From a virus: a stretch of DNA of 38,496 nucleotides. The stretch spans positions 1 to 38,496 of the IMG/VR virus record IMGVR_UViG_3300020473_000063. One strand, written 5' to 3'. The notes under the pieces are model-generated. The model was given only the letters and a program-made list of their open reading frames with translations. It searched no databases and had not been told where the DNA came from. Position numbers and translations under genes: made by a program. Position 1 is the stretch's first letter; every line of letters begins with the position of its first letter. Shown in pieces: positions 5,909 through 38,496 of this stretch.

Positions 5909-8900
5909 ATGGCAGAGCAGACATTTAGATCGCCAGGATTTTTCGATCAGGAGATCGACCTCTCCGGCCGACAGACACAGGCGTCAGGAATTCCGGCAGG
6001 AATTGTTGGAACATCACAAAAAGGGCCTGCGTTTGTTCCGGTTACAGTTGGTTCATTCGCTGATTTTGAGGCAAAGTTTGGTTCCCTAGATCCTAAAAGG
6101 TTCGGACCGTACGCAGCTGAAAAGTGGCTAAAGAATAGATCAGCATGTACATACGTGAGAGTGTTAGGAGCCGGCGCAAACGAGACAACAACCCACATTG
6201 AAAATACTAGATCCGCAGGAATCGTTTCAAATGCAGGATTTAGAGTGTCGGGGTCAGTATCAGCTGACGACGAGGCAATCTTGACAGAGCAAGGTGGTGT
6301 GCAGTTCATTGTTGCAAAGCACAATGCTGTTGAAGATGAGGCTGTAGGATTTCCGGTCTTTACAGACAACGACAGCGTGGGATCAGCAAATGAAGTAAAC
6401 CTGATCAGAGGAATGGTCCTGATGGCATCGGGAACGAGGCTTCTGACGATAGATCACGATGCCAACTGGAGTTCAGCTTCCCCTGATGAGGGGAAAGCAG
6501 TACAGTCAAGGGTCGGTGCAATTGGAGAGTCTGCTCTAAGTACTGCAAAATACTTCAAGCTAATTTTAAGCTCCACAGCCGGCGCAGGATACGGAAATGA
6601 TGAGGCGGCTGGTCTTAGAATTCTTTCTGCGACTCTTGATCCCAACGATGGTGCATACATCGGAAAAATCTTGAACACAGATCCTAGACGATTCCAAACA
6701 GAGCAGCACTTGCTGCTAGCAGATTTTGCTGTTGAGCACGATCTAGCACCTGTAATTGCCGGTGCTGATTTGGAAGGAGTTGAAACTGTAGCAATAATGT
6801 CAGGTAATGACTATGCCTCGAGCGAAAAGGATCCGCTAAGCAACACATTCCTAGAGCTATTTGGAAGGTTTGACACAAGATACACAACACCTAGAACAAC
6901 TTCATTCATTTCGCAGCCATTTGGTAAAGCTGAGTTTGATTTATTTCATTTTGAAACAATAGACGACGGCGCCTACGCAAATGAAAAATTCAAAGTTTCA
7001 ATTGCAGGCCTCAAGGCGTCAACAAACAAAAAGCAGCCGTTTGGATCATTTGAAGTTCAAATTAGATCTTTTGAGGACACCGACGGCAACTCACAGATCT
7101 TAGAAAGGTACCCAAACTGCTCACTTGATCCTAATTCTGATCGATACGTCGCACGACTAGTTGGTGATAAAAAAGTTAGGTTTGACTTTGATCAAGAAGA
7201 TCCGGACGAAAGAAGGCTAGTTGTAACAGGAAAATATCCTAATATTTCTTCTCGAGTTAGAATTGTGATGAACGAACAAGTCACTAAAGAACAGGTTCCA
7301 AAAGAATCTCTTCCGTTTGGCTTTAGGGGAATTCCTGTTATAAAAACAACTGATACGTTGACGGACTCTGATACAACAGTTCTTGCACAGGGAGGAACGA
7401 CATACGGATCAGCCAGAGGAAGATTGGCGCGCCCGCCCTTGGGCAACTCAGGGTCAATCGTTCCCCCGCTTCCGTTTAGAGTTAAAGTGACTCGTGGGCC
7501 AGTAAAGTCTTCTAATACTGAGTTCCTTGGTCATCCTGGCGATGACGAGAGAGTTGACGGAAGGCTTTACTGGGGTGTAAAGACTACACTCCTTCCTGTA
7601 TCTTCTTCGACAGACACCGTCAACGGAATTGCTGCAGCAGCTAGAGATGCAAATAAGGGTTCCGGAGTCAATCCGCTGGTTAGAGCGTACACAAAATTCC
7701 AAGGAATTCAAAAGCTCGATGCACTAGTCACAGGATCGGGCAAAGATGCTTTCAACAATAACAAGTTTACTCTGGCTCGAGTGGCTCTCTATAACACTAC
7801 TACAACATTAGCAGGAGTGACAACAGCCGTAACAGGAACTGCGAAAGAGCACATGGTTCAGGCAGCATATGTTAGAAACGGAGCGCCGAATACAACAACC
7901 TATACGGTTAATGATGGAACCCTGTCTAACAGAATTACTCTCGCCTCGCTCGTCGCGACGTCGTCACAGCTCTTCAATAGATTTACTGGGTTTGCCAAGT
8001 TCACCAATCTATTTTATGGTGGGTTTGACGGAGTAAACATCTTAGACGAAGACCAGTTCTACTTTAGAGATAGGGCACTTTCGGCAGACACAGGCGGAAA
8101 AAATGTGTCAACTGCTAATTCACAGGATATAGGTCTCGCTCTCCAGACGGGAGGCGAAGGCCGAAGAAACAACAATGTCTTTTCAGTGCAAAAAGCAGTT
8201 GAAATTATAACAAATCCCGTGACTTCAAAAATCAACCTTCTTGCGGTCCCGGGAATTAGAGATCCTTACGTTACAGATCATGCAGCACAGTCTGTCAAGG
8301 ACTACGGCATGGCAATGTACGTAATGGATATGCCTGAGTACGACATGGACAACGCTAGACTGTACGATGACTCAGCTAACAGATCGAGCTCGGAAAAAAC
8401 TATTGATAATTTTGAAGGAAGAGCTATTGACAACAACTATGTTGCAACGTACTTCCCGAATGTAGACATCACGGATGATGTCAACAATAGAATAGTTCAG
8501 GTTCCTGCTTCTGTGGCAGCAATCGGTGCTCTTGGTTTCAACGACAGATCAGAAAATGTTTGGTTTGCACCTGCAGGATTTAGCAGGGGCGCACTTGATT
8601 TTGTGACAAATGTCGAAAATAGGCTTTCTTCAAATGATAGAGATGACCTTTATGATGCCAGGATCAATCCAATTGCAACATTCCCACGTGCAGGATTTGT
8701 TATATTCGGTCAAAAGACATTGCAAGTCGCACAAAGTGCTTTAGATAGAATAAATGTTAGAAGAATGCTTCTTGATGTCAAGCGTAGAATTAGCAACATC
8801 GCTAAAAACCTTGTTTTCGAACAAAACAACGCATCGACTCGAAACAGGTTTGTTAGTGATGCTGTCTTGCAGCTGACTGCTGTACAAGCTGGGCAAGGAA

Positions 8901-9058
8901 TTGAGGCATTTAGCGTAGTTTGCGATGATACGAACAATACAACGGCAGATATTGAACAAAATAGAATGAGGGGCACCATAAAGGTTGTGCCGACTCGAGC
9001 CGTTGAATTCATCGCAGTTGATTTCATTATCACGAATAGTGGCGTGAGCTTCGAGTAA
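5909..9058 (+). CDS. Contractile tail sheath protein 1 (T4 gp18-like, enlarged)
   Basis: A 1049-residue sheath protein. Hallmarks: N-terminal FRSPGFFDQEIDLSG and GIPAGIVGTSQKGPAFVPV, typical of myovirus sheaths; a central domain with FKVSIAGLKAS and CSLDPNSDRYVARLVGD; and the conserved C-terminal block FGQKTLQVAQSALDRINVRR ... RGTIKVVPTRAVEFIAVDF, which forms the core that packs on the tube. T4 gp18 has 659 residues, so about 390 extra residues sit in surface domains between the terminal blocks. A clear ribosome site AGGAG precedes the start. The next gene is a paralogue of the same length, 29 bases downstream. The sheath contracts to drive the tube through the envelope. Confidence 0.95.
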   Translation: MAEQTFRSPGFFDQEIDLSGRQTQASGIPAGIVGTSQKGPAFVPVTVGSFADFEAKFGSLDPKRFGPYAAEKWLKNRSACTYVRVLGAGANETTTHIENTRSAGIVSNAGFRVSGSVSADDEAILTEQGGVQFIVAKHNAVEDEAVGFPVFTDNDSVGSANEVNLIRGMVLMASGTRLLTIDHDANWSSASPDEGKAVQSRVGAIGESALSTAKYFKLILSSTAGAGYGNDEAAGLRILSATLDPNDGAYIGKILNTDPRRFQTEQHLLLADFAVEHDLAPVIAGADLEGVETVAIMSGNDYASSEKDPLSNTFLELFGRFDTRYTTPRTTSFISQPFGKAEFDLFHFETIDDGAYANEKFKVSIAGLKASTNKKQPFGSFEVQIRSFEDTDGNSQILERYPNCSLDPNSDRYVARLVGDKKVRFDFDQEDPDERRLVVTGKYPNISSRVRIVMNEQVTKEQVPKESLPFGFRGIPVIKTTDTLTDSDTTVLAQGGTTYGSARGRLARPPLGNSGSIVPPLPFRVKVTRGPVKSSNTEFLGHPGDDERVDGRLYWGVKTTLLPVSSSTDTVNGIAAAARDANKGSGVNPLVRAYTKFQGIQKLDALVTGSGKDAFNNNKFTLARVALYNTTTTLAGVTTAVTGTAKEHMVQAAYVRNGAPNTTTYTVNDGTLSNRITLASLVATSSQLFNRFTGFAKFTNLFYGGFDGVNILDEDQFYFRDRALSADTGGKNVSTANSQDIGLALQTGGEGRRNNNVFSVQKAVEIITNPVTSKINLLAVPGIRDPYVTDHAAQSVKDYGMAMYVMDMPEYDMDNARLYDDSANRSSSEKTIDNFEGRAIDNNYVATYFPNVDITDDVNNRIVQVPASVAAIGALGFNDRSENVWFAPAGFSRGALDFVTNVENRLSSNDRDDLYDARINPIATFPRAGFVIFGQKTLQVAQSALDRINVRRMLLDVKRRISNIAKNLVFEQNNASTRNRFVSDAVLQLTAVQAGQGIEAFSVVCDDTNNTTADIEQNRMRGTIKVVPTRAVEFIAVDFIITNSGVSFE

Positions 9059-9087: not shown

Positions 9088-12000
9088 ATGGCAGAGTTAA
9101 CATTTCCAGTTAGCCCCGGGGTGATAACGCGGGAGATAGACCTTTCAGGACCCACTCAAATAGGACCCACCGGTGTTCCAGCTGGTGTTATTGGCACTGC
9201 TGTCAGAGGACCTGCATTTGTGCCTGTGACGGTCGCCACCTTCCAAGACTTCATCTCAGTTTTTGGTAACTCGGACGGGAAAAAATTTGGTCCGATGGCT
9301 ATGAGAGAATGGCTTAGAAACGCAAACGCCGGAACTTTTGTAAGAGTTCTTGGCGTGGGAGACGGAACAGCTAGAAAAGAATCAGGTGACAATGTCGGCC
9401 GCGTAAATAACGCAGGGTTCGTCGTAGGATCAGAGCTCCCAAAAGAAAACGGTCTCTTGGGAAACAACAGCTTTGCCGGAGAACTTAATGAACACTCACC
9501 AGAGGGACGTACCTACGCACTTGTCACACTAATGTCAGAATCAGCTGGCTCTACTGTGTTTACAGATGCAGGTTGTTTCAAAAAGTCGGCTGACGCTGCC
9601 TGGCCTATCTTGAGAGGCGTTTTGATGGCACCCTCGGGAGTTGTGTTAGGTCTTAGTTCGACACTTGAAGGAAACAACACAGCTGTTAGCGCTAACTCCG
9701 CGTTTGGAACGTTCGGAGCTGCAAAGGATGGCGGAGCATCTTACGGAACCATTGACACATCAAACAACCAGTTTGTAGTTTTGGTAAACGGTCTAAAACC
9801 AAGCGACCAGTACGATAATGTCCTGACCGCCTCTATGAACCCTGATGATCCTAACTACTTTGTCAATGTTTTCAACACAGATCCTACAAAAGTTCAAGAT
9901 GCTGGGCACCTCCTGTATGCTCACTATGACATACTGCCTTCGATGGCAGTTGTTACAGGGTCGGGAAGAATCGCGGTATGTGGCACCACAGAGGAAGACG
10001 CAGTCTTTCTAATGAACACTACACAAAATAGAAATGTGGGTACTGTAAATGATGTGCCCAACGATGAAGTAGGTGTTCCTAACTATGAAAACTTTGAAGA
10101 TAGATTTTCATCAGCATTTTCTCCCTATGTTGTGTCACAAAAATTTGGCACCTCCAATACGGATCTTTTCAAGTTCAACACCCTGTCAGATGGGGCTATT
10201 GGCTCCGGAGAGTTCAAGGTAACGATTGAAAACATTAAAGCATCCAACAAGGCCAATAACAAGTACGGCACATTTGATGTGCTGATTCGACGGTTCATGG
10301 ACAACGATCTAAATCCAGAAGTTGTTGAGTCTTTTAGAGGGTGTAGTCTAGACGCAACATCTGATAATTACATCGCCAAAAGAATCGGAGATAGAAACAC
10401 ATTCTATGACTTTGATGCAGCAGCTGGATCACAAAAAATTGTAGTTGAGGGTGACTACCCTAATGTTTCTAACTTTGTTAGAGTTACAATAAGTGATCCA
10501 CTCAAGAACGGATCGGTTGACGCCACAGCATTGCCCACTGGATTTAGAGGTCTTTACCACTTGGTGACATCTGGAACAGCAGACGGTGCGACATCAATCT
10601 TCTCGGGTTCGCACACAGCAATCACAGCCCACGAAAATCACTTGATGGAGCAGGGCTTCCTCAAGAACGTAGTGCAACCTCCTGTTCCGCTTCGAGAATC
10701 TTTATCAACAGGGTTGTCACCCAGGAAAAACTTGCAATCTGCGTTTACGTGGGGCGTCCAGTTTGAACTAAAATCTTCACCAACTGAGCCCAATAAGGAA
10801 GAAAGAATTGACTCTTCGCTGTTGTCTTTCACAAAATTCTTCCCGAGCTTTATGACAAGCATACAAAATGTTTGGCAGGGAGACAATGCTGGCACCGCAA
10901 AACTAGGAGGCGCTGTTCAGGATGCTGACCAGTTCAACAGAAACTTCTTTTCTCTGGAAAGAGTTGAGGTTATTACCAATTCAGCAGACAGACCTGATCC
11001 GGTACAGTGGGCCGCCGCGGCATACCGCCGGGACGGAGTCCAGATCGGAACTCTCACAGACAGAGATGGGACCGCCGGCGTTTCATCACGACTTTTGGAT
11101 CCCACAAAAGACTTTTCGCATGTTCCAACTCAGAAATACCTAAAGTTCACTTTCCCACTAATCGGCGGATTTGACGGTGTCAACATTCTTGATGAAGAAA
11201 AATCAAAAATCAGTGACATTGCTGCTCGTCGTGAAATGGATGATTCGAACCAGGGTGGAAAAGACGGTCCTACAGTTGCTGCCTACAGAAAAGCTGTTGA
11301 CCTTATGGAGGCGAAGCAAGATGTTGATATTCAGCTTCTTGCAATACCCGGATTACGTCATCCAGCAATTACTGACTATGCAATTGAAGCAACAGAGCGA
11401 AGATTTGATGCTCTCTTCATCATGGACATTGAAGAAAAAGATGAAGTCGACGCATTCATTACAGGATCGGTTCAGGTTCCAAGTGTCGTAAACACAATAA
11501 ATAAATTTGCTGGAAGAGCCTTAGACACATCGTTCGCTGCAGCATACTATCCGGACATTGTGATAGCAGACCCGGCAACTCGAACAAACGTTAAGGCACC
11601 ACCCTCAGCTGTTGTTTTGGGTGCATTCTCACTAAATGATGCTGTTGGCTTCCCGTTTTTGGCTCCGGCAGGATTCACGAGAGGGGCTTTGGCCTCCGCG
11701 ATTTATCCGGGTGTTGAGCTGCTTCAGCAGAATAGAGACGATCTTTACACTGCAGACATCAACCCGATCATTGGTGATGTAACAAGATCGTCCGGTGTGA
11801 CAGTGTTCGGACAGAAAACTCTTCTGGCAGCACAAAGTGCTCTTGACAGGGTGAACGTAAGACGTCTTTTGATAGACGTGCGTAGAAAAGTTAGAAATGT
11901 TGCAAGAACTTTCTTGTTCGAGCCTAACCAGGCAGCAACAATTGCAGCATTTCAATCTAGAGTCAGCCCAATTCTAAAGGACATCCAGTCTCAGGGCGGT

Positions 12001-12147
12001 CTAGATCGCTTCAAGGTAATAATCGATACAACCACCACGACACAGGCGGACATCGAGAACAATACGATCCGTGGTCGCATATTCTTGCAGCCGACAAGAT
12101 CAGTTGAATTTGTGTCACTTGACTTTGTTGTTAGTAACAGCATCTAA
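9088..12147 (+). CDS. Contractile tail sheath protein 2 (T4 gp18-like, paralogue)
   Basis: A 1019-residue protein collinear with the preceding one. It shares REIDLSG, GVPAGVIGTAVRGPAFVPV, the central FKVTIENIKAS ... CSLDATSDNYIAKRIGD, GGFDGVNILDE, and the C-terminal FGQKTLLAAQSALDRVNVRR ... QPTRSVEFVSLDFVVSNS. Identity is high in the terminal blocks and low in the middle, as expected if the inner core is conserved and exposed domains diverged. AGGAG lies at good spacing before ATG 9088. Two sheath proteins may co-assemble, alternate, or form different tail zones. It is followed by the tail tube gene, the usual order. Confidence 0.95.
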   Translation: MAELTFPVSPGVITREIDLSGPTQIGPTGVPAGVIGTAVRGPAFVPVTVATFQDFISVFGNSDGKKFGPMAMREWLRNANAGTFVRVLGVGDGTARKESGDNVGRVNNAGFVVGSELPKENGLLGNNSFAGELNEHSPEGRTYALVTLMSESAGSTVFTDAGCFKKSADAAWPILRGVLMAPSGVVLGLSSTLEGNNTAVSANSAFGTFGAAKDGGASYGTIDTSNNQFVVLVNGLKPSDQYDNVLTASMNPDDPNYFVNVFNTDPTKVQDAGHLLYAHYDILPSMAVVTGSGRIAVCGTTEEDAVFLMNTTQNRNVGTVNDVPNDEVGVPNYENFEDRFSSAFSPYVVSQKFGTSNTDLFKFNTLSDGAIGSGEFKVTIENIKASNKANNKYGTFDVLIRRFMDNDLNPEVVESFRGCSLDATSDNYIAKRIGDRNTFYDFDAAAGSQKIVVEGDYPNVSNFVRVTISDPLKNGSVDATALPTGFRGLYHLVTSGTADGATSIFSGSHTAITAHENHLMEQGFLKNVVQPPVPLRESLSTGLSPRKNLQSAFTWGVQFELKSSPTEPNKEERIDSSLLSFTKFFPSFMTSIQNVWQGDNAGTAKLGGAVQDADQFNRNFFSLERVEVITNSADRPDPVQWAAAAYRRDGVQIGTLTDRDGTAGVSSRLLDPTKDFSHVPTQKYLKFTFPLIGGFDGVNILDEEKSKISDIAARREMDDSNQGGKDGPTVAAYRKAVDLMEAKQDVDIQLLAIPGLRHPAITDYAIEATERRFDALFIMDIEEKDEVDAFITGSVQVPSVVNTINKFAGRALDTSFAAAYYPDIVIADPATRTNVKAPPSAVVLGAFSLNDAVGFPFLAPAGFTRGALASAIYPGVELLQQNRDDLYTADINPIIGDVTRSSGVTVFGQKTLLAAQSALDRVNVRRLLIDVRRKVRNVARTFLFEPNQAATIAAFQSRVSPILKDIQSQGGLDRFKVIIDTTTTTQADIENNTIRGRIFLQPTRSVEFVSLDFVVSNSI

Positions 12148-25751: not shown

Positions 25752-26855
25752 GTGATTGTGTACCAACAAATAAGAAACACACGTGTCTGTCTTTTTAGAG
25801 TTGAAACCACACCAGATGTGTCTGTTTCCTGGGAAAGTACGTGTGAATTCCTAAAGATCGCATTTGGCAAAGATGTTGATCACATACCGAAGCCCGTCAA
25901 GAACATGTGTGATGCCGTCGGATTAGATGACTGGTCTTTTTGGCCTACTTTGCTTCCTGCGCAAACAAGAGAACAAATAATTGCAGACAGGAAGGCGGAT
26001 CTTCTAAACGCAGTTTCACACACAGGGAACTACATCGAAACTTGGTTGAAAATTAGAAGTTTTCTCGACAACTTAGGAACACCCGACCTTGACGAAAGCA
26101 TGCTCCGACAGGCAGTTCCCAAGAATCACAAAAGCCTGTTTGAAAAAATTAGAAAAGGGGACACAAAACCGAGATACAATACGAGTGGAACTTCTACAGG
26201 ACGTCTAACTATTACCTCGGGACCCAACTTTCTAACGCTGCCCAGAGAATCCAGAAATGCCCTTAGAGCAACTCAAAAGGGATCGTCCATATATTCTATC
26301 GATTTCACGTCTTTGGAACCCAGAGTGGCCCTCTGGATGTCTTCTACGAAACACCCAGAAGAAGATGTATATGCAACTGTCATGGAAATGTGCGACATAT
26401 CCGATCGTGCTGTTGCAAAGCTAGCTACACTGTCTTCTCTTTATGGTGCCGGGGTTCAAAGGTTGTCGGTGACAATCGGAAGTCAAAAAAGAGCAAAACA
26501 GCTAATAGAAAGAGTTTCTAATTTCTTTGAAATTCCAGAATGTGCTAAGCGCCTAGAACATCAAGCAGCTAATGGATGTGTTGTCAACTACTTTGGAAGA
26601 CCTCTGTTTGAGGCAACAAAGCAACCCAGGGTGAGAGTCAATCATTACATACAATCAACCGCAGCAGACTTGGCAAACTTGCTGTTCGCCGAGCTCTGCA
26701 AAAACAACAAAGAGGTCACCCCTCTAGTCTTGATACACGATGCTTTGATCGCAGAAGTACCAGACGAATCAGCAGTCCAATTTTTTGATCATTGTAAGAA
26801 CATTTCTTACGACGGGTTTGACTTTCCAACAAAAATTGAGCGAATGAATATTTAG
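25752..26855 (+). CDS. Family A DNA polymerase, polymerase domain only
   Basis: A 367-residue protein with all core motifs of the Pol I polymerase domain: TGRL at 149-152; motif A DFTSLEPR with catalytic D184 and the steric-gate E189; motif B RxxxKxxxLxxxYG (R219, K223, L227, Y231); QSTAADLANLL at 301-311; motif C IHDAL with H329 and D330. The position of E. coli F762 is Leu here. There is no 3'-5' exonuclease and the thumb region is short; a typical phage Pol A is 550-700 residues. The 5' nuclease is a separate gene at 31329. It starts at GTG 25752 with no obvious ribosome site. It opens the replication module and is the presumed replicative polymerase, unless a larger one lies outside the window. 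Confidence 0.9.
   Translation: MIVYQQIRNTRVCLFRVETTPDVSVSWESTCEFLKIAFGKDVDHIPKPVKNMCDAVGLDDWSFWPTLLPAQTREQIIADRKADLLNAVSHTGNYIETWLKIRSFLDNLGTPDLDESMLRQAVPKNHKSLFEKIRKGDTKPRYNTSGTSTGRLTITSGPNFLTLPRESRNALRATQKGSSIYSIDFTSLEPRVALWMSSTKHPEEDVYATVMEMCDISDRAVAKLATLSSLYGAGVQRLSVTIGSQKRAKQLIERVSNFFEIPECAKRLEHQAANGCVVNYFGRPLFEATKQPRVRVNHYIQSTAADLANLLFAELCKNNKEVTPLVLIHDALIAEVPDESAVQFFDHCKNISYDGFDFPTKIERMNI
26849..26854 (+). promoter_or_regulatory. TATTTA junction element after the polymerase gene
   Basis: TATTTA spans the polymerase stop codon and ends 17 bases before ATG 26871, in the context ATATTTAGTCTATAGGAG, nearly the same as the context at 2586-2602. Candidate promoter core of the recurring junction type. 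Confidence 0.3.
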
Positions 26856-33809: not shown

Positions 33810-36299
33810 ATGTCGACGTATGATGAAGCATATAAGAAAAGTTTAGAGTATTTTGGCGGGGATGAATTAGCAGCCAATGTCTTTATTACAAAATACGCCC
33901 TCACTGATAAATCGGGCGAAATACATGAGCAAACACCGGATGAAATGCATCGCAGAATGTCCCGAGAGTTCGCAAGAATAGAGTCAAACTATCCAAACCC
34001 AATGACAGAAGATGAGATCTATGACCTCCTAGCTCACTTCAAGCATGTTGTTCCTCAAGGTTCACCAATGTCAGGAATTGGAAACCCACACCAGATTCAG
34101 TCACTTTCTAACTGTTTTGTAATTGAATCCCCGTATGACTCTTACGGAGGAATTCTTAAGACAGATCAAGAACTAGTTCAAATAGCAAAAAGAAGGGGCG
34201 GAGTCGGGTTTGATTTGAGTACAATTAGACCTAAGGGGCTGTCAACAGGTAATTGTGCCAGGACAACTGACGGCATCGAAGTCTTTATGGACAGGTTTTC
34301 AAATTCATGTCGAGAAGTAGCACAAGGCGGCCGGCGAGGAGCCTTAATGTTGACTATTTCTGTGCATCACCCCCAGATTCAGGATTTTGTAAAAATAAAG
34401 AGAGACTTGACAAGAGTAACAGGCGCCAATATTTCAATTCGTCTTACAGATGAATTTTTAGATGCTGTCAAAAATGAGTCAAGTTTTCAGTTAAGATTTC
34501 CTGTGGAAAAAGATGCAGATCACCAAGTTACACATAGTGTTGATGCTCGAGACTTGTGGACAGAAATTATTGAAAGCGCACACGCGTCTGCTGAGCCCGG
34601 GCTTTTGTTTTGGGACACAGCAAAAAAAATGACACCGTCAGACATTTACGCAGATGAAGGGTTTGGATCTTCTTCAACTAATCCGTGCGGTGAGATTATC
34701 TTGAGCCCATATGATAGTTGCCGCCTAATATTAGTGAATCTTTTATCGTTTGTTGAGAACCCGTTTACACATGAGGCTTCTTTCAACTATGAGCTCATGT
34801 CCGACGTGACTCAAAAAGCGCAGCGATTGATGGACGATATGATTGATCTAGAGATTGAACAGGTGGAAAGAATACTTGATAAAATTGAAAGTGATCCCGA
34901 GCCTGATGCTGTAAAACAAATTGAAAAAGACTTGTGGGAAAACATAAAGACACAAGCAACTCTAGGTAGAAGAACTGGCTTAGGAGTGACAGCAGTTGGT
35001 GACACTCTAGCTGCTCTAGGACTAAAGTACGGGTCTGAAGAATCAGTCACCACCGTCGAAGAGTTTTACAAAACTTTGGCAACTAGTGCCTATCGCTCTT
35101 CCTGTGTTATGGCAAAAGAGAGAGGAGCGTTTAAAGCTCACAACCACGACAAAGAAAGAGGACATCCTTTCTTAGAGCGAATTTGGGAAGAAGCACCTGA
35201 TGTCTATGAAATGAGCAAGAAGTACGGCCGTCGTAATATAGCGCTAACCACTACAGCGCCTGCAGGATCTGTATCAGTTCTGACACAGACAACTTCTGGA
35301 ATAGAGCCTGCTTTTATGCTTCACTACACGAGGCGCAAAAAACTTACTGAGAATGATGTCGATGGCCGTGTTGATTTTATCGATGACAGTGGCGACCGAT
35401 GGCAAGAATACAGCGTTTATCATCATGGCTTTAAGAAGTGGATGAATACTTTGTCTGTCGACCAAGTCGAAACGATAAGCAACGAGAAGCTCGTTGAGAT
35501 GAGTCCATATAATGGTGCAACTGCAAACGAAATTGACTGGGTGCAAAAAGTAAAAATGCAAGCTGCAGCTCAAAAGTGGGTTTGCCATGCAATTTCTAAC
35601 ACAACCAATCTACCTGCTGACATTGACATTGAAACTGTAAAAGATGTGTATATGACTGGGTGGGAGCTAGGGTGCAAGGGAGTAACAGTTTACAGAGACG
35701 GATCTCGTGCAGGTGTTCTAGTAGCTTCAGACAAAAGTGATGAGGTAAAATTCAAAACCCACTCAGCTCCACCGCGCCCTGATCAACTAAAATGTCACAT
35801 TCATCATGCAACCATTAAAGGTGAAGCTTGGACAATTCTTGTAGGTCTACTTGATGGTAGACCTTATGAGGTAATGGGAGGCCTCCAGAAGTACATAGAG
35901 ATTCCCAAGAAATATAAAAAAGGAACAATCATAAAGCATCACTACAAGTCAAAAAACTCTCGCTATGATCTTGTTATTGGAAAGAATGGAGACACTCTAA
36001 TCATAAAAGATCTTGTTGACGTGTTCGACAATCCTAATCATGCTGGGTTTACAAGGACAATTTCACTAGCTTTAAGACATGGTGCTGCTATCAACTATGT
36101 TGTCGAGCAGCTGCAAAAAGATAGAGAAATGGACATGTTTTCATTCTCTAAGGTGATTGCTAGAGTTTTGAAAAACTATATCAAAGATGGAACAGTGCCT
36201 GGAAAGACTGTTTGTGAAAATTGCGGGGCTGAAAACTCTTTGACTTATCAAGAGGGGTGTGTCACGTGTACAGCATGTGGATCAAGTAAGTGTAGCTAG
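33810..36299 (+). CDS. nrdJ: Class II (adenosylcobalamin-dependent) ribonucleotide reductase
   Basis: An 829-residue reductase that converts ribonucleotides to deoxyribonucleotides. Active-site elements: C102 in LSNCFVI, N291-C293-E295 in NPCGE, C304 in SPYDSC, and LTTTAPAGSVS as the phosphate-binding segment. The last 180 residues hold a TSCPD-like domain (PPRPDQLKCHIHHATIKGEAWTI ...) and a Cys cluster C802-x2-C805, C817-x2-C820-x2-C823, C828, seen in NrdJ proteins. No nrdB-like small subunit is adjacent, in keeping with class II, which uses B12 and needs no oxygen. It ends just before a small unknown gene. The host must supply cobalamin or the phage must depend on an existing pool. Confidence 0.92.
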   Translation: MSTYDEAYKKSLEYFGGDELAANVFITKYALTDKSGEIHEQTPDEMHRRMSREFARIESNYPNPMTEDEIYDLLAHFKHVVPQGSPMSGIGNPHQIQSLSNCFVIESPYDSYGGILKTDQELVQIAKRRGGVGFDLSTIRPKGLSTGNCARTTDGIEVFMDRFSNSCREVAQGGRRGALMLTISVHHPQIQDFVKIKRDLTRVTGANISIRLTDEFLDAVKNESSFQLRFPVEKDADHQVTHSVDARDLWTEIIESAHASAEPGLLFWDTAKKMTPSDIYADEGFGSSSTNPCGEIILSPYDSCRLILVNLLSFVENPFTHEASFNYELMSDVTQKAQRLMDDMIDLEIEQVERILDKIESDPEPDAVKQIEKDLWENIKTQATLGRRTGLGVTAVGDTLAALGLKYGSEESVTTVEEFYKTLATSAYRSSCVMAKERGAFKAHNHDKERGHPFLERIWEEAPDVYEMSKKYGRRNIALTTTAPAGSVSVLTQTTSGIEPAFMLHYTRRKKLTENDVDGRVDFIDDSGDRWQEYSVYHHGFKKWMNTLSVDQVETISNEKLVEMSPYNGATANEIDWVQKVKMQAAAQKWVCHAISNTTNLPADIDIETVKDVYMTGWELGCKGVTVYRDGSRAGVLVASDKSDEVKFKTHSAPPRPDQLKCHIHHATIKGEAWTILVGLLDGRPYEVMGGLQKYIEIPKKYKKGTIIKHHYKSKNSRYDLVIGKNGDTLIIKDLVDVFDNPNHAGFTRTISLALRHGAAINYVVEQLQKDREMDMFSFSKVIARVLKNYIKDGTVPGKTVCENCGAENSLTYQEGCVTCTACGSSKCS

Positions 36300-36311: not shown

Positions 36312-36605
36312 ATGATGATGTACACAACTAAGTTGATTTGGCATAAAAAAAGTGACAAGAGAGAAGATGACATTCTTTTGGTGTATTCTTGGCCTAACTT
36401 TCGAGAGCTTTTGCAGCTAAGAAGATTGGCACAGGACAAAAAAAATCAAAAGTGGTATGTAAGAAGCTGTTCAATTGACGATAACGACACTTGTGAAGTT
36501 TTTGGTGACAAGTGGTATTACGAAACATTGCACGGATTTGACACTGTGAGAGAATTTTGCAATTGGCTGGAGGAAAAGGTTTATGTTGACAAAAGTAGCT
36601 GTTAG
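36312..36605 (+). CDS. Small hypothetical protein upstream of ClpP-like gene
   Basis: A 97-residue protein of no recognised family. It starts at one of three in-frame ATG codons (36312, 36315, 36318); TAGG at 36307 best fits the third. It is rich in Trp, Tyr and charged residues (LIWHKKSDKREDDILLVYSWPNFRELLQLRR ... WYVRSCSIDD ... FCNWLEEKVYVDK), suggesting a compact soluble domain. Its last 23 bases overlap the ClpP-like start, so the two are coupled and might act together, for example as adaptor and protease; that is only an inference from the overlap. Confidence 0.65.
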   Translation: MMMYTTKLIWHKKSDKREDDILLVYSWPNFRELLQLRRLAQDKKNQKWYVRSCSIDDNDTCEVFGDKWYYETLHGFDTVREFCNWLEEKVYVDKSSC

Positions 36606-37185
36606 TAGTCTAATCAAGGAAGTAGAGCTAAGAAAAAATCCTGTAGTGATCAGAGTCAATAAATTTGACGAAGAGAGCGCTGAAAAGTTTATAAAGCTAA
36701 TGAGCCAGGCACACAACACAGGGCAACCTGTGATTCCAATCATTATTGATTCTTACGGTGGTCAAGTATATTCACTGATGGCCATGATTGCAGCAATAAA
36801 AAATTCTGAACTTCCTGTTGCCACAATTGTACAGGGAAAGGCAATGTCTTGTGGTGCAGTCTTAACAACGTTTGGCGAAGAGGGTAGAAGATTTGCTGAC
36901 CCTAACGCAACTATCATGATTCATGACGTGTCTTCTATGGAGTGGGGGAAGGTTGAAGAGCTCAAAGCTAGCGCAAAAGAAGCTGATAGACTGAATGACA
37001 CTATCTACAAGATGATGGCACAAAATTGCGGCAAGAAGGACGATTATTTCTTAAAGATCGTTGACAAGAAGAAGCACGCAGATTGGTTCATTGATGCTGA
37101 AGAAGCAAAAAAACACAACATTATTAATCATATGCGCGTTCCAAAAATGAATATCAACGTGAGCGTGGATATTGACTTTGAATAG
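36583..37185 (+). CDS. ClpP-type serine protease
   Basis: A 200-residue ClpP homologue (E. coli ClpP is about 193 mature residues). The triad is intact: S89 in QGKAMSCGAVL, H114 in TIMIHDVSS, and D167 in HADWFIDAEEA, at the expected spacings. The IIIDSYGGQVYSLMAMIAAI segment (53-71) matches the ClpP handle-side strand-helix. No Clp ATPase lies in the window, so it would use host ClpX/A or act alone. GGAGG nine bases before ATG supports the start. Head maturation is less likely since the head genes are not nearby; protein turnover or host takeover is possible. Confidence 0.88.
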   Translation: MLTKVAVSSLIKEVELRKNPVVIRVNKFDEESAEKFIKLMSQAHNTGQPVIPIIIDSYGGQVYSLMAMIAAIKNSELPVATIVQGKAMSCGAVLTTFGEEGRRFADPNATIMIHDVSSMEWGKVEELKASAKEADRLNDTIYKMMAQNCGKKDDYFLKIVDKKKHADWFIDAEEAKKHNIINHMRVPKMNINVSVDIDFE

Positions 37186-37194
37186 GAGAAAAAA

Positions 37195-38268
37195 TTGTCA
37201 CATAACAACACTGTGCTTGTCGTAGGAACAGGTACGATCGGGGAGCCTCTAATTGGGCTTCTTTGTCGCCTAAAGAAAAAGCTTAAAATTGATGAAATAA
37301 TATTTCACAAGAGAACACCTCTTGTTGACGAGATAGCAAAAGTTGAAAGCTTGGTTTCTATGGGAGCCAAATTAGCAGTAAACAAAGGGTGCGAAGAAAA
37401 ATTTGCAGAATTTGGTCATAAAGTTTCGTATACGTGGGAGAAAGCGCTCAAGCGGTCAAAAGTAGTCATTGACTGCACACCTGCGGGAAACGAGAATAAA
37501 GAAAAGTTCTATCAAAAATACAAAGACAAACTTTTTATAGCCCAAGGAAGCGAAAAGGGGTTTGGAGTTCCTTATGCTCTAGGATTGACAGACACAAAAG
37601 TTATGGAAAAAGAAGAAGGGTATGTGCAAGTAGTGAGCTGTAATACTCACGCGATAGCCCGTCTAATCAGCGCAGTGTCAGAAAATAGTCCTGCATCAGT
37701 ATCGTTTGGAGATTTTACATGTATTAGGCGATCTAATGATGTAAGTCAAGACAGCGGCTTCTCGCCCTCGACTTCAGCTGGCAAGCACAGCGATTCTGAG
37801 TTTGGAACTCACCACGCCAAAGATGTAAATGATTTGTTTGACCACGCACTTCCTATGCCAATTTTTTCAAGTGCTCTCAAGACAAATACACAGTACATGC
37901 ATGCAATTAGATTTTCCATAAAGCTTCCTGAGTCGCTTACAAGAGAAAGTGTCCTTCAGCGACTTCGAGAAGATGAGTTTGTTTGCATGACAAAAAAAAT
38001 GTCTGCAAATCAAATTTTTTCTTTTGGGAGAGATCACGGATTCTACGGTAGAATTTATTCACAAACTGTTGTGTGTGAAGACTCAGTCGAGGTTTTCCAC
38101 TCAGAACCTTATGTTTCAAACATAGTGGGTGTAGCATTTACACCACAGGATGGCAACTCTTTGATGTCATCAGTTGCGATGTGTTTGTACGGTCTTCACG
38201 GTAGTGAGGCTCTTCATGAAAGCACTTATATTCCGCTTTTGAAAGATATGATGTTACAGAACGTGTAA
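37195..38268 (+). CDS. Type II (archaeal-type) glyceraldehyde-3-phosphate dehydrogenase homologue
   Basis: A 357-residue protein, close to the ~340 of archaeal GAPDH. Seen: Rossmann GTGTIG (11-16); VIDCTPAG (91-98); IAQGSEK (115-121); the catalytic VSCNT with C149; CIRRSNDV (176-183), equivalent to the RRGADP substrate segment; and FGTHHAKDV (203-211), matching the conserved HHGPDV block with its catalytic His. It should oxidise or form glyceraldehyde-3-phosphate with NAD(P). Some substitutions (Asn-Asp-Val for Ala-Asp-Pro, shortened PINA segment) leave the substrate open. The TTG start has AGGAG at good spacing. The gene is part of the unit after the reductase and protease. Confidence 0.82.
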   Translation: MSHNNTVLVVGTGTIGEPLIGLLCRLKKKLKIDEIIFHKRTPLVDEIAKVESLVSMGAKLAVNKGCEEKFAEFGHKVSYTWEKALKRSKVVIDCTPAGNENKEKFYQKYKDKLFIAQGSEKGFGVPYALGLTDTKVMEKEEGYVQVVSCNTHAIARLISAVSENSPASVSFGDFTCIRRSNDVSQDSGFSPSTSAGKHSDSEFGTHHAKDVNDLFDHALPMPIFSSALKTNTQYMHAIRFSIKLPESLTRESVLQRLREDEFVCMTKKMSANQIFSFGRDHGFYGRIYSQTVVCEDSVEVFHSEPYVSNIVGVAFTPQDGNSLMSSVAMCLYGLHGSEALHESTYIPLLKDMMLQNV

Positions 38269-38311: not shown

Positions 38312-38496
38312 ATGTGGCAACCACCAAAGTCTCCTGTAGGCTTAATTCAGGAAGAATTGTGGCCTGACGAGTGGAAGATTCTAATTTCTTGTCTGATGCT
38401 GAACCAGACAACAAGAAAGCAAGTCGACAAAGTAATTTGGAAATTTTTTGACAAATGGCCAGATCCACATAGTTTAATGTCTGCAAACGTAAAAGA
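38312..38496 (+). CDS. MBD4-like thymine/uracil DNA glycosylase, N-terminal part (cut by window end)
   Basis: Sixty-one codons are visible before the window ends. The sequence PPKSPVGLIQEELWPDEWKI, then LISCLMLNQTTRKQVDKVIWKFFDKWPDPHSLMSANV, matches the start of the HhH-GPD glycosylase domain of MBD4 (P-S-P-x-x-L-x-Q-E-x-L-xx-D-xW-K-x-L-I-xx-x-x-LN-x-T). In MBD4 this enzyme removes T or U from mismatches with G. The helix-hairpin-helix and the catalytic Asp lie beyond the window. AGGAGG before ATG gives a good start. It is not a fragment of a normal endonuclease III start; the PPKSP lead is typical of the MBD4 branch. Confidence 0.75.
   Translation, partial: MWQPPKSPVGLIQEELWPDEWKILISCLMLNQTTRKQVDKVIWKFFDKWPDPHSLMSANVK

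Follow-up and report, generated by a model that had tools for sequence, protein, structure and literature searches.

As far as can be judged from sequence, the nearest known families of the dehydrogenase described here are the type II GAPDHs, represented in archaea by the models TIGR01546 and NF003251 and the structures 1cf2, 1b7g, 2czc, and 2yyy. The fold, the nucleotide-binding motif, the catalytic cysteine, the equivalent of His219, the paired arginines, the paired histidines, and the K33-P36 segment are shared with these enzymes, although identity to them is about 20%. A parallel to the proposed function is offered by GapB of Bacillus, a gluconeogenic NADP-dependent type I GAPDH. An anabolic NADP(H) enzyme beside a glycolytic one is the role proposed here, but GapB belongs to the type I subfamily and has no close sequence relationship to the phage protein.

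Among phages, an aceBA operon has been reported in TARA_ERS478052_N000008 (PMC5332604), and aceAB have been found in viromes (PMC4053976). The former is a large T4-like phage genome with aceB-aceA, as are found in three contigs considered below, but GAPDH is not mentioned in the text of the paper (PMC5332604) and there is no aceA in the 38.5 kb window, by which is meant the whole stretch of DNA analysed here. The cyanophage genes talC, zwf, gnd, and cp12 are likewise believed to divert the flow of central carbon and of NADPH. Cyanophage CP12 is thought to inhibit the host GAPDH (PMC5082946), whereas here the phage itself encodes a GAPDH-like enzyme. The literature searched, which mostly did not extend to subscription journals, yielded no description of a type II GAPDH from a phage.

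The preferred reading, given a probability of about 0.5, is that the product is a phosphorylating aldehyde dehydrogenase, catalytically active and with the GAPDH fold, sister to the archaeal type II enzymes, which would probably prefer NADP(H) and act mainly in the anabolic direction; here we infer the substrate, cofactor, direction, and role in infection.

The gene on its phage contig

The window is an IMG/VR virus record with T4-like tail and replication genes; it has two tail-sheath genes and genes for a gp32-like single-strand binding protein, UvsX/RecA, a 5'-3' exonuclease, a DnaB-type helicase, NrdJ, and ClpP, followed by the GAPDH-like ORF and a cut HhH-GPD gene. The GAPDH-like gene, at 37195..38268 on the + strand, encodes 357 aa from a TTG start with no internal stop, and a likely ribosome-binding site, aggaga, can be read directly at 37184..37189 (+), with 5 bases between its end and the TTG. 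On the same strand, 5' of the gene, are nrdJ (33810..36299), encoding an adenosylcobalamin-dependent ribonucleotide reductase (TIGR02504, 480 bits against a cut-off of 400), a 97 aa ORF without a family match, and clpP (36583..37185), encoding a ClpP-family protease (PF00574, E=4e-27). The HhH-GPD repair protein gene 3' of it, at 38312..38494 (+), is truncated by the contig end, and its ORF start resembles that of L004:11122-11544 (PF00730, E=1.6e-8). The initial annotation had placed the gene in a phage unit after ribonucleotide reductase and ClpP, which is indeed its position.

Host contamination is rejected, since the contig itself bears phage genes and the gene recurs on many phage contigs. 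As would be expected of an auxiliary metabolic gene, this metabolic gene shares one contig with genes for tail sheath, UvsX, helicase, and NrdJ, and it has bacterial homologues. Among the close phage copies compared, dN/dS is 0.03-0.13, indicating purifying selection. Elsewhere in the window, 5909-9058 and 9088-12147 encode adjacent, very large tail-sheath-like proteins of 1049 and 1019 aa that are 33% identical to each other, and the short ORF at 25752-26855 (367 aa) encodes a family A DNA polymerase in which the match is limited to the polymerase domain.

Family placement and active site

The window protein matches NF003251 (E=1e-28, 100.3 bits) and TIGR01546 (E=6e-21, 75 bits), as do 80/80 sampled members of its branch, and in the PDB its sequence matches four structures, the archaeal type II GAPDHs 1cf2, 1b7g, 2czc, and 2yyy, with chains at E=3e-13 to 1e-8. 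The resemblance is far from a chance one. The curated cut-offs are 185 bits for NF003251 and 232.9 bits for TIGR01546; the window protein and seven other members scored singly all fall far below both, with 77-103 bits on NF003251, which makes this a sister branch of type II GAPDH and not the canonical enzyme. Searches of Pfam and PHROG with the window protein returned no family match. It is not a member of type I GAPDH either, having no match to PF00044/PF02800 and being missed by TIGR01534, a model that matches 18 of the 80 members weakly. Rejected as the family were asd, type I GAPDH, and E4PDH, which matched few of the 80 members and much more weakly, so that no dehydrogenase family closer than type II GAPDH was found. 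The initial annotation, which had called the protein a type II GAPDH homologue, was therefore right in its observation and, at the superfamily level, in its family call; the homology stands, but membership among the canonical enzymes does not.

An AlphaFold model built from an 80-row alignment (pLDDT 93.9, pTM 0.92) leads to the same relatives. The first six matches in a search of the PDB are all archaeal GAPDH chains, headed by 2czc and 2yyy, and the TM score against 2yyy reaches 0.79/0.82, showing a GAPDH fold. The viral BFVD structure library holds nothing comparable, with no convincing match to the model.

Residue conservation was counted over 80 members, with 1b7g and 1cf2 as the archaeal references, and all of the features given below are on the + strand. 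The type II hallmarks listed in the initial annotation, GTGTIG (aa 11-16), VIDCTPAG (aa 91-98), VSCNT (aa 147-151, including C149), and HHAKDV (aa 206-211), are all present in the ORF. In GTGTIG, the nucleotide-binding glycine motif (37225..37242), G11, G13, T14, and G16 are invariant (80/80). The catalytic Cys149 codon (37639..37641, in SCNTH) is also invariant and aligns to C139 of 1b7g and C140 of 1cf2, as are Arg178-Arg179 (37726..37731), aligned to R166/R167. His206-His207 (37810..37815), to which the initial annotation had looked for the active site, are conserved (80/80 and 79/80) and match His192/193, but the equivalent of archaeal His219, which we take to be the catalytic base, is by alignment His236 (37900..37902; 80/80), and this is thus the probable base here. 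K39-R40-T41-P42 (37309..37320) aligns with archaeal K33..P36, in which K33 presumably contacts NADP, and is a probable contact for the NADP 2'-phosphate (K39 80/80, P42 78/80). Strand 2 ends without an acidic residue, so that NADP-type features are found and the acceptance of NADP suggested at the outset would be consistent with them.

In the mechanism proposed, 1,3-bisphosphoglycerate and glyceraldehyde-3-phosphate would most probably be interconverted via a thioester on Cys149; His236 would serve as the base, and phosphate would be bound by Arg178/179 and His206/207. The pocket is, however, consistently altered compared to the archaeal enzymes, with T142 replaced by H152, A169 by N181 in most members, and an FG insertion, and the substrate may therefore not be glyceraldehyde-3-phosphate. 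The archaeal SCNTT and RRAAD are SCNTH and RRAND in this branch, which adds the FG insertion and a C-terminal FTPQDGN, the latter and His152 being its signatures. The changed RRGADP-like segment that had been remarked upon is thus real, and a different aldehyde may be the substrate. On this alternative, a GAPDH-fold enzyme would oxidise another phosphorylated aldehyde, or reduce another acyl-phosphate, in an unrecognised pathway. It would account for the failure of all eight singly scored members to come near the curated cut-offs, for the very long branch to archaeal GAPDH, and for the family-invariant H152, H198, F123-G124, and Q318-N321, all missing from the archaeal sequences compared. The residues with which GAPDH binds phosphate and carries out catalysis are nevertheless retained, and this explanation is considered rather unlikely.

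Distribution and phylogeny

By profile search, the gene is found at 77 viral loci, some of them fragments, with 43-73% identity to the window protein, and homologues are present in at least 546 bacterial genome stretches, the best 80 of which are about 50% identical. It is present in 39 of 100 Acidimicrobiia and about 60 of 100 Marinimicrobia surveyed, so the initial description as typical of archaea and few bacteria does not fit this branch, which is common in bacteria. In the class survey, the gene is kept by all 22 Acidimicrobiia whose genomes are near 1 Mb, streamlined genomes that are probably Actinomarinales. No isolate phage matches convincingly, the sole match in a set of 50,697 phage records, isolate or deposited, being a weak one to a 4 kb fecal record. 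The branch is separate and little described, and numerous phages and bacteria that have not been cultured share it. Of the 36 viral records looked at, 9 contain a capsid gene of the T4 gp23 type.

In a carefully built tree with 67 rows, 20 phage sequences, including the window, form one clade (support 99/93). A single clade of all the viral sequences is rejected (AU p=0.003), and at least two viral acquisitions are therefore likely. L063 falls inside the Marinimicrobia, grouping with one of them at 100/98; the positions of L060/L062/L064, L057, and L068 are at other points among the bacterial sequences. Recent theft from a host is rejected for the main clade, where the 20 sampled rows make up one phage branch, and the gene is old within it. 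The streamlined Acidimicrobiia are the sister branch to this clade (100/97), but on a long branch, which makes this a tentative hint about the phage hosts. In a separate tree, archaeal GAPDH, represented by partial sequences from PDB alignments, is on a very long branch. L063 (IMGVR_UViG_3300045738_002037) is a phage contig of 157 kb that also encodes a gp23 capsid protein, and the nesting of its GAPDH-like gene suggests a Marinimicrobia host.

Gene neighbourhoods and possible role

Type I GAPDH is also present in 36/36 bacterial genomes with the gene, and in 36/37 such Acidimicrobiia; the branch is thus not simply its replacement but has a job of its own, retained even at a genome size of about 1 Mb. 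In the Acidimicrobiia of about 1 Mb, PPDK adjoins the gene in 13/13 loci examined, followed in L193, L196, and L197 by aceA-aceB, and in many larger Acidimicrobiia aceB-aceA, sometimes with glpX, are directly upstream. These neighbours belong to the glyoxylate shunt and to gluconeogenesis, a gluconeogenic setting, and in bacteria the gene seems to be the anabolic partner to the separate type I GAPDH. Against this reading, such neighbours were seen in the Acidimicrobiia only, those in Krumholzibacteriota, Acidobacteriota, and Marinimicrobia being unrelated. Neighbours without relation to glycolysis in most phyla would favour a different substrate; on the other side stand the gluconeogenic neighbours in the Acidimicrobiia and the aceBA genes of the sister phages.

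In streamlined Acidimicrobiia there is a tandem type I GAPDH pair (L189:2460-3470, L192:1906-2907), the first copy of which has FGSNTAN or LGSNTAN in place of SNASCTTN; it lacks the catalytic Cys and is therefore probably a pseudoenzyme. The tandem type I copy in an Eisenbacteria genome (L190:2075-3079) retains it. GAPDHs often moonlight, and non-catalytic GAPDHs exist in these bacteria, so that the phage protein might instead bind host GAPDH, nucleic acid, or metabolites, with catalysis secondary. The invariance of Cys149 and His236 in 80/80 members would be unexpected if catalysis were dispensable, and this possibility is regarded as very remote. A glutamate-cysteine ligase family 2 (GCS2) gene near the GAPDH-like gene in streamlined Acidimicrobiia and Marinimicrobia (L193:4486-5622, L230:6756-7883, L236:8827-9957) was rejected as a functional neighbour, being too sporadic in these two phyla.

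In the clade of the window, with L002 and L003, the order is nrdJ-clpP-gene-HhH-topoisomerase. It had been suggested that the enzyme supplies NADPH to the reductase, and a catabolic role, in which glyceraldehyde-3-phosphate is oxidised with NADP+ during infection and the NADPH formed goes to ribonucleotide reductase and the making of dNTPs, would fit this position directly after nrdJ and clpP as well as the alignment of K39/P42 with the archaeal NADP-binding segment. Of 36 viral records that carry the gene, 12 have ribonucleotide reductase barrel domains scoring above the cut-off, among them every one of the six longer than 170 kb, and a different route by which cyanophages would raise NADPH for dNTPs has been proposed (PMC5082946). 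However, the nrdJ-clpP-gene order is limited to the window's own small clade, one member of which, L004, has a different reductase, and the suggestion is weak. In most phages the gene is near PhoH, with a small ORF and a protease-like gene also nearby in the largest group; ribonucleotide reductase is common in large phages anyway, and the bacterial context, where informative, is gluconeogenic. A catabolic role is thus considered rather unlikely. The reductase of L004 (6346-8733) is much different from the window NrdJ (33810-36299), with 702 versus 298 bits for the Pfam barrel, and clpP and the GAPDH-like gene are retained there despite this change.

The sister clade to that of the window in the tree, L014, L015, and L016, has aceB-aceA, for malate synthase and isocitrate lyase, at a distance of 3.3-6.8 kb on the downstream side of the GAPDH-like gene. 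L014 is clearly phage, with UvsX-exonuclease-helicase-NrdJ-ClpP ordered as in the window. As a general phage partner of the gene aceBA is rejected, since the gene is absent from 47/47 other aceA-bearing viral records. Of 51 viral records that carry the gene, just 3 have aceA, and both counts speak against the anabolic reading.

On the preferred reading of an anabolic, probably NADP(H)-linked enzyme, C3 carbon would be drawn up during infection to the phosphates of hexoses and pentoses, to be used in making nucleotides and glycans, and in the sister phages with aceBA C2 carbon would be drawn the same way. During infection the gene probably helps to direct the flow of carbon and NADP(H). If so, at least two phage lineages carry the reversible redox step of lower glycolysis, in the form of a widespread, unnamed bacterial enzyme that is present beside the normal GAPDH even in streamlined 1 Mb genomes, and the phage strategy would be to build sugar phosphates from C2/C3 carbon, unlike the pentose-phosphate flux for NADPH proposed for cyanophages. 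More tentatively, and somewhat doubtfully, this could be an undescribed second class of bacterial GAPDH-like enzyme, sister to archaeal type II, NADP-linked, and gluconeogenic, that was taken up by at least two virus lineages and, in the sister phages with aceBA, would be part of a phage-encoded route from acetyl-CoA towards sugar phosphates, by which some phages would push gluconeogenesis.

The aceB-aceA genes (L014:13565-17233, L016:11406-15114, and those of L015) are preceded by a gene partly matching eukaryotic-type phosphomannomutase, and the L014 contig also has genes for GroEL and IMP dehydrogenase.
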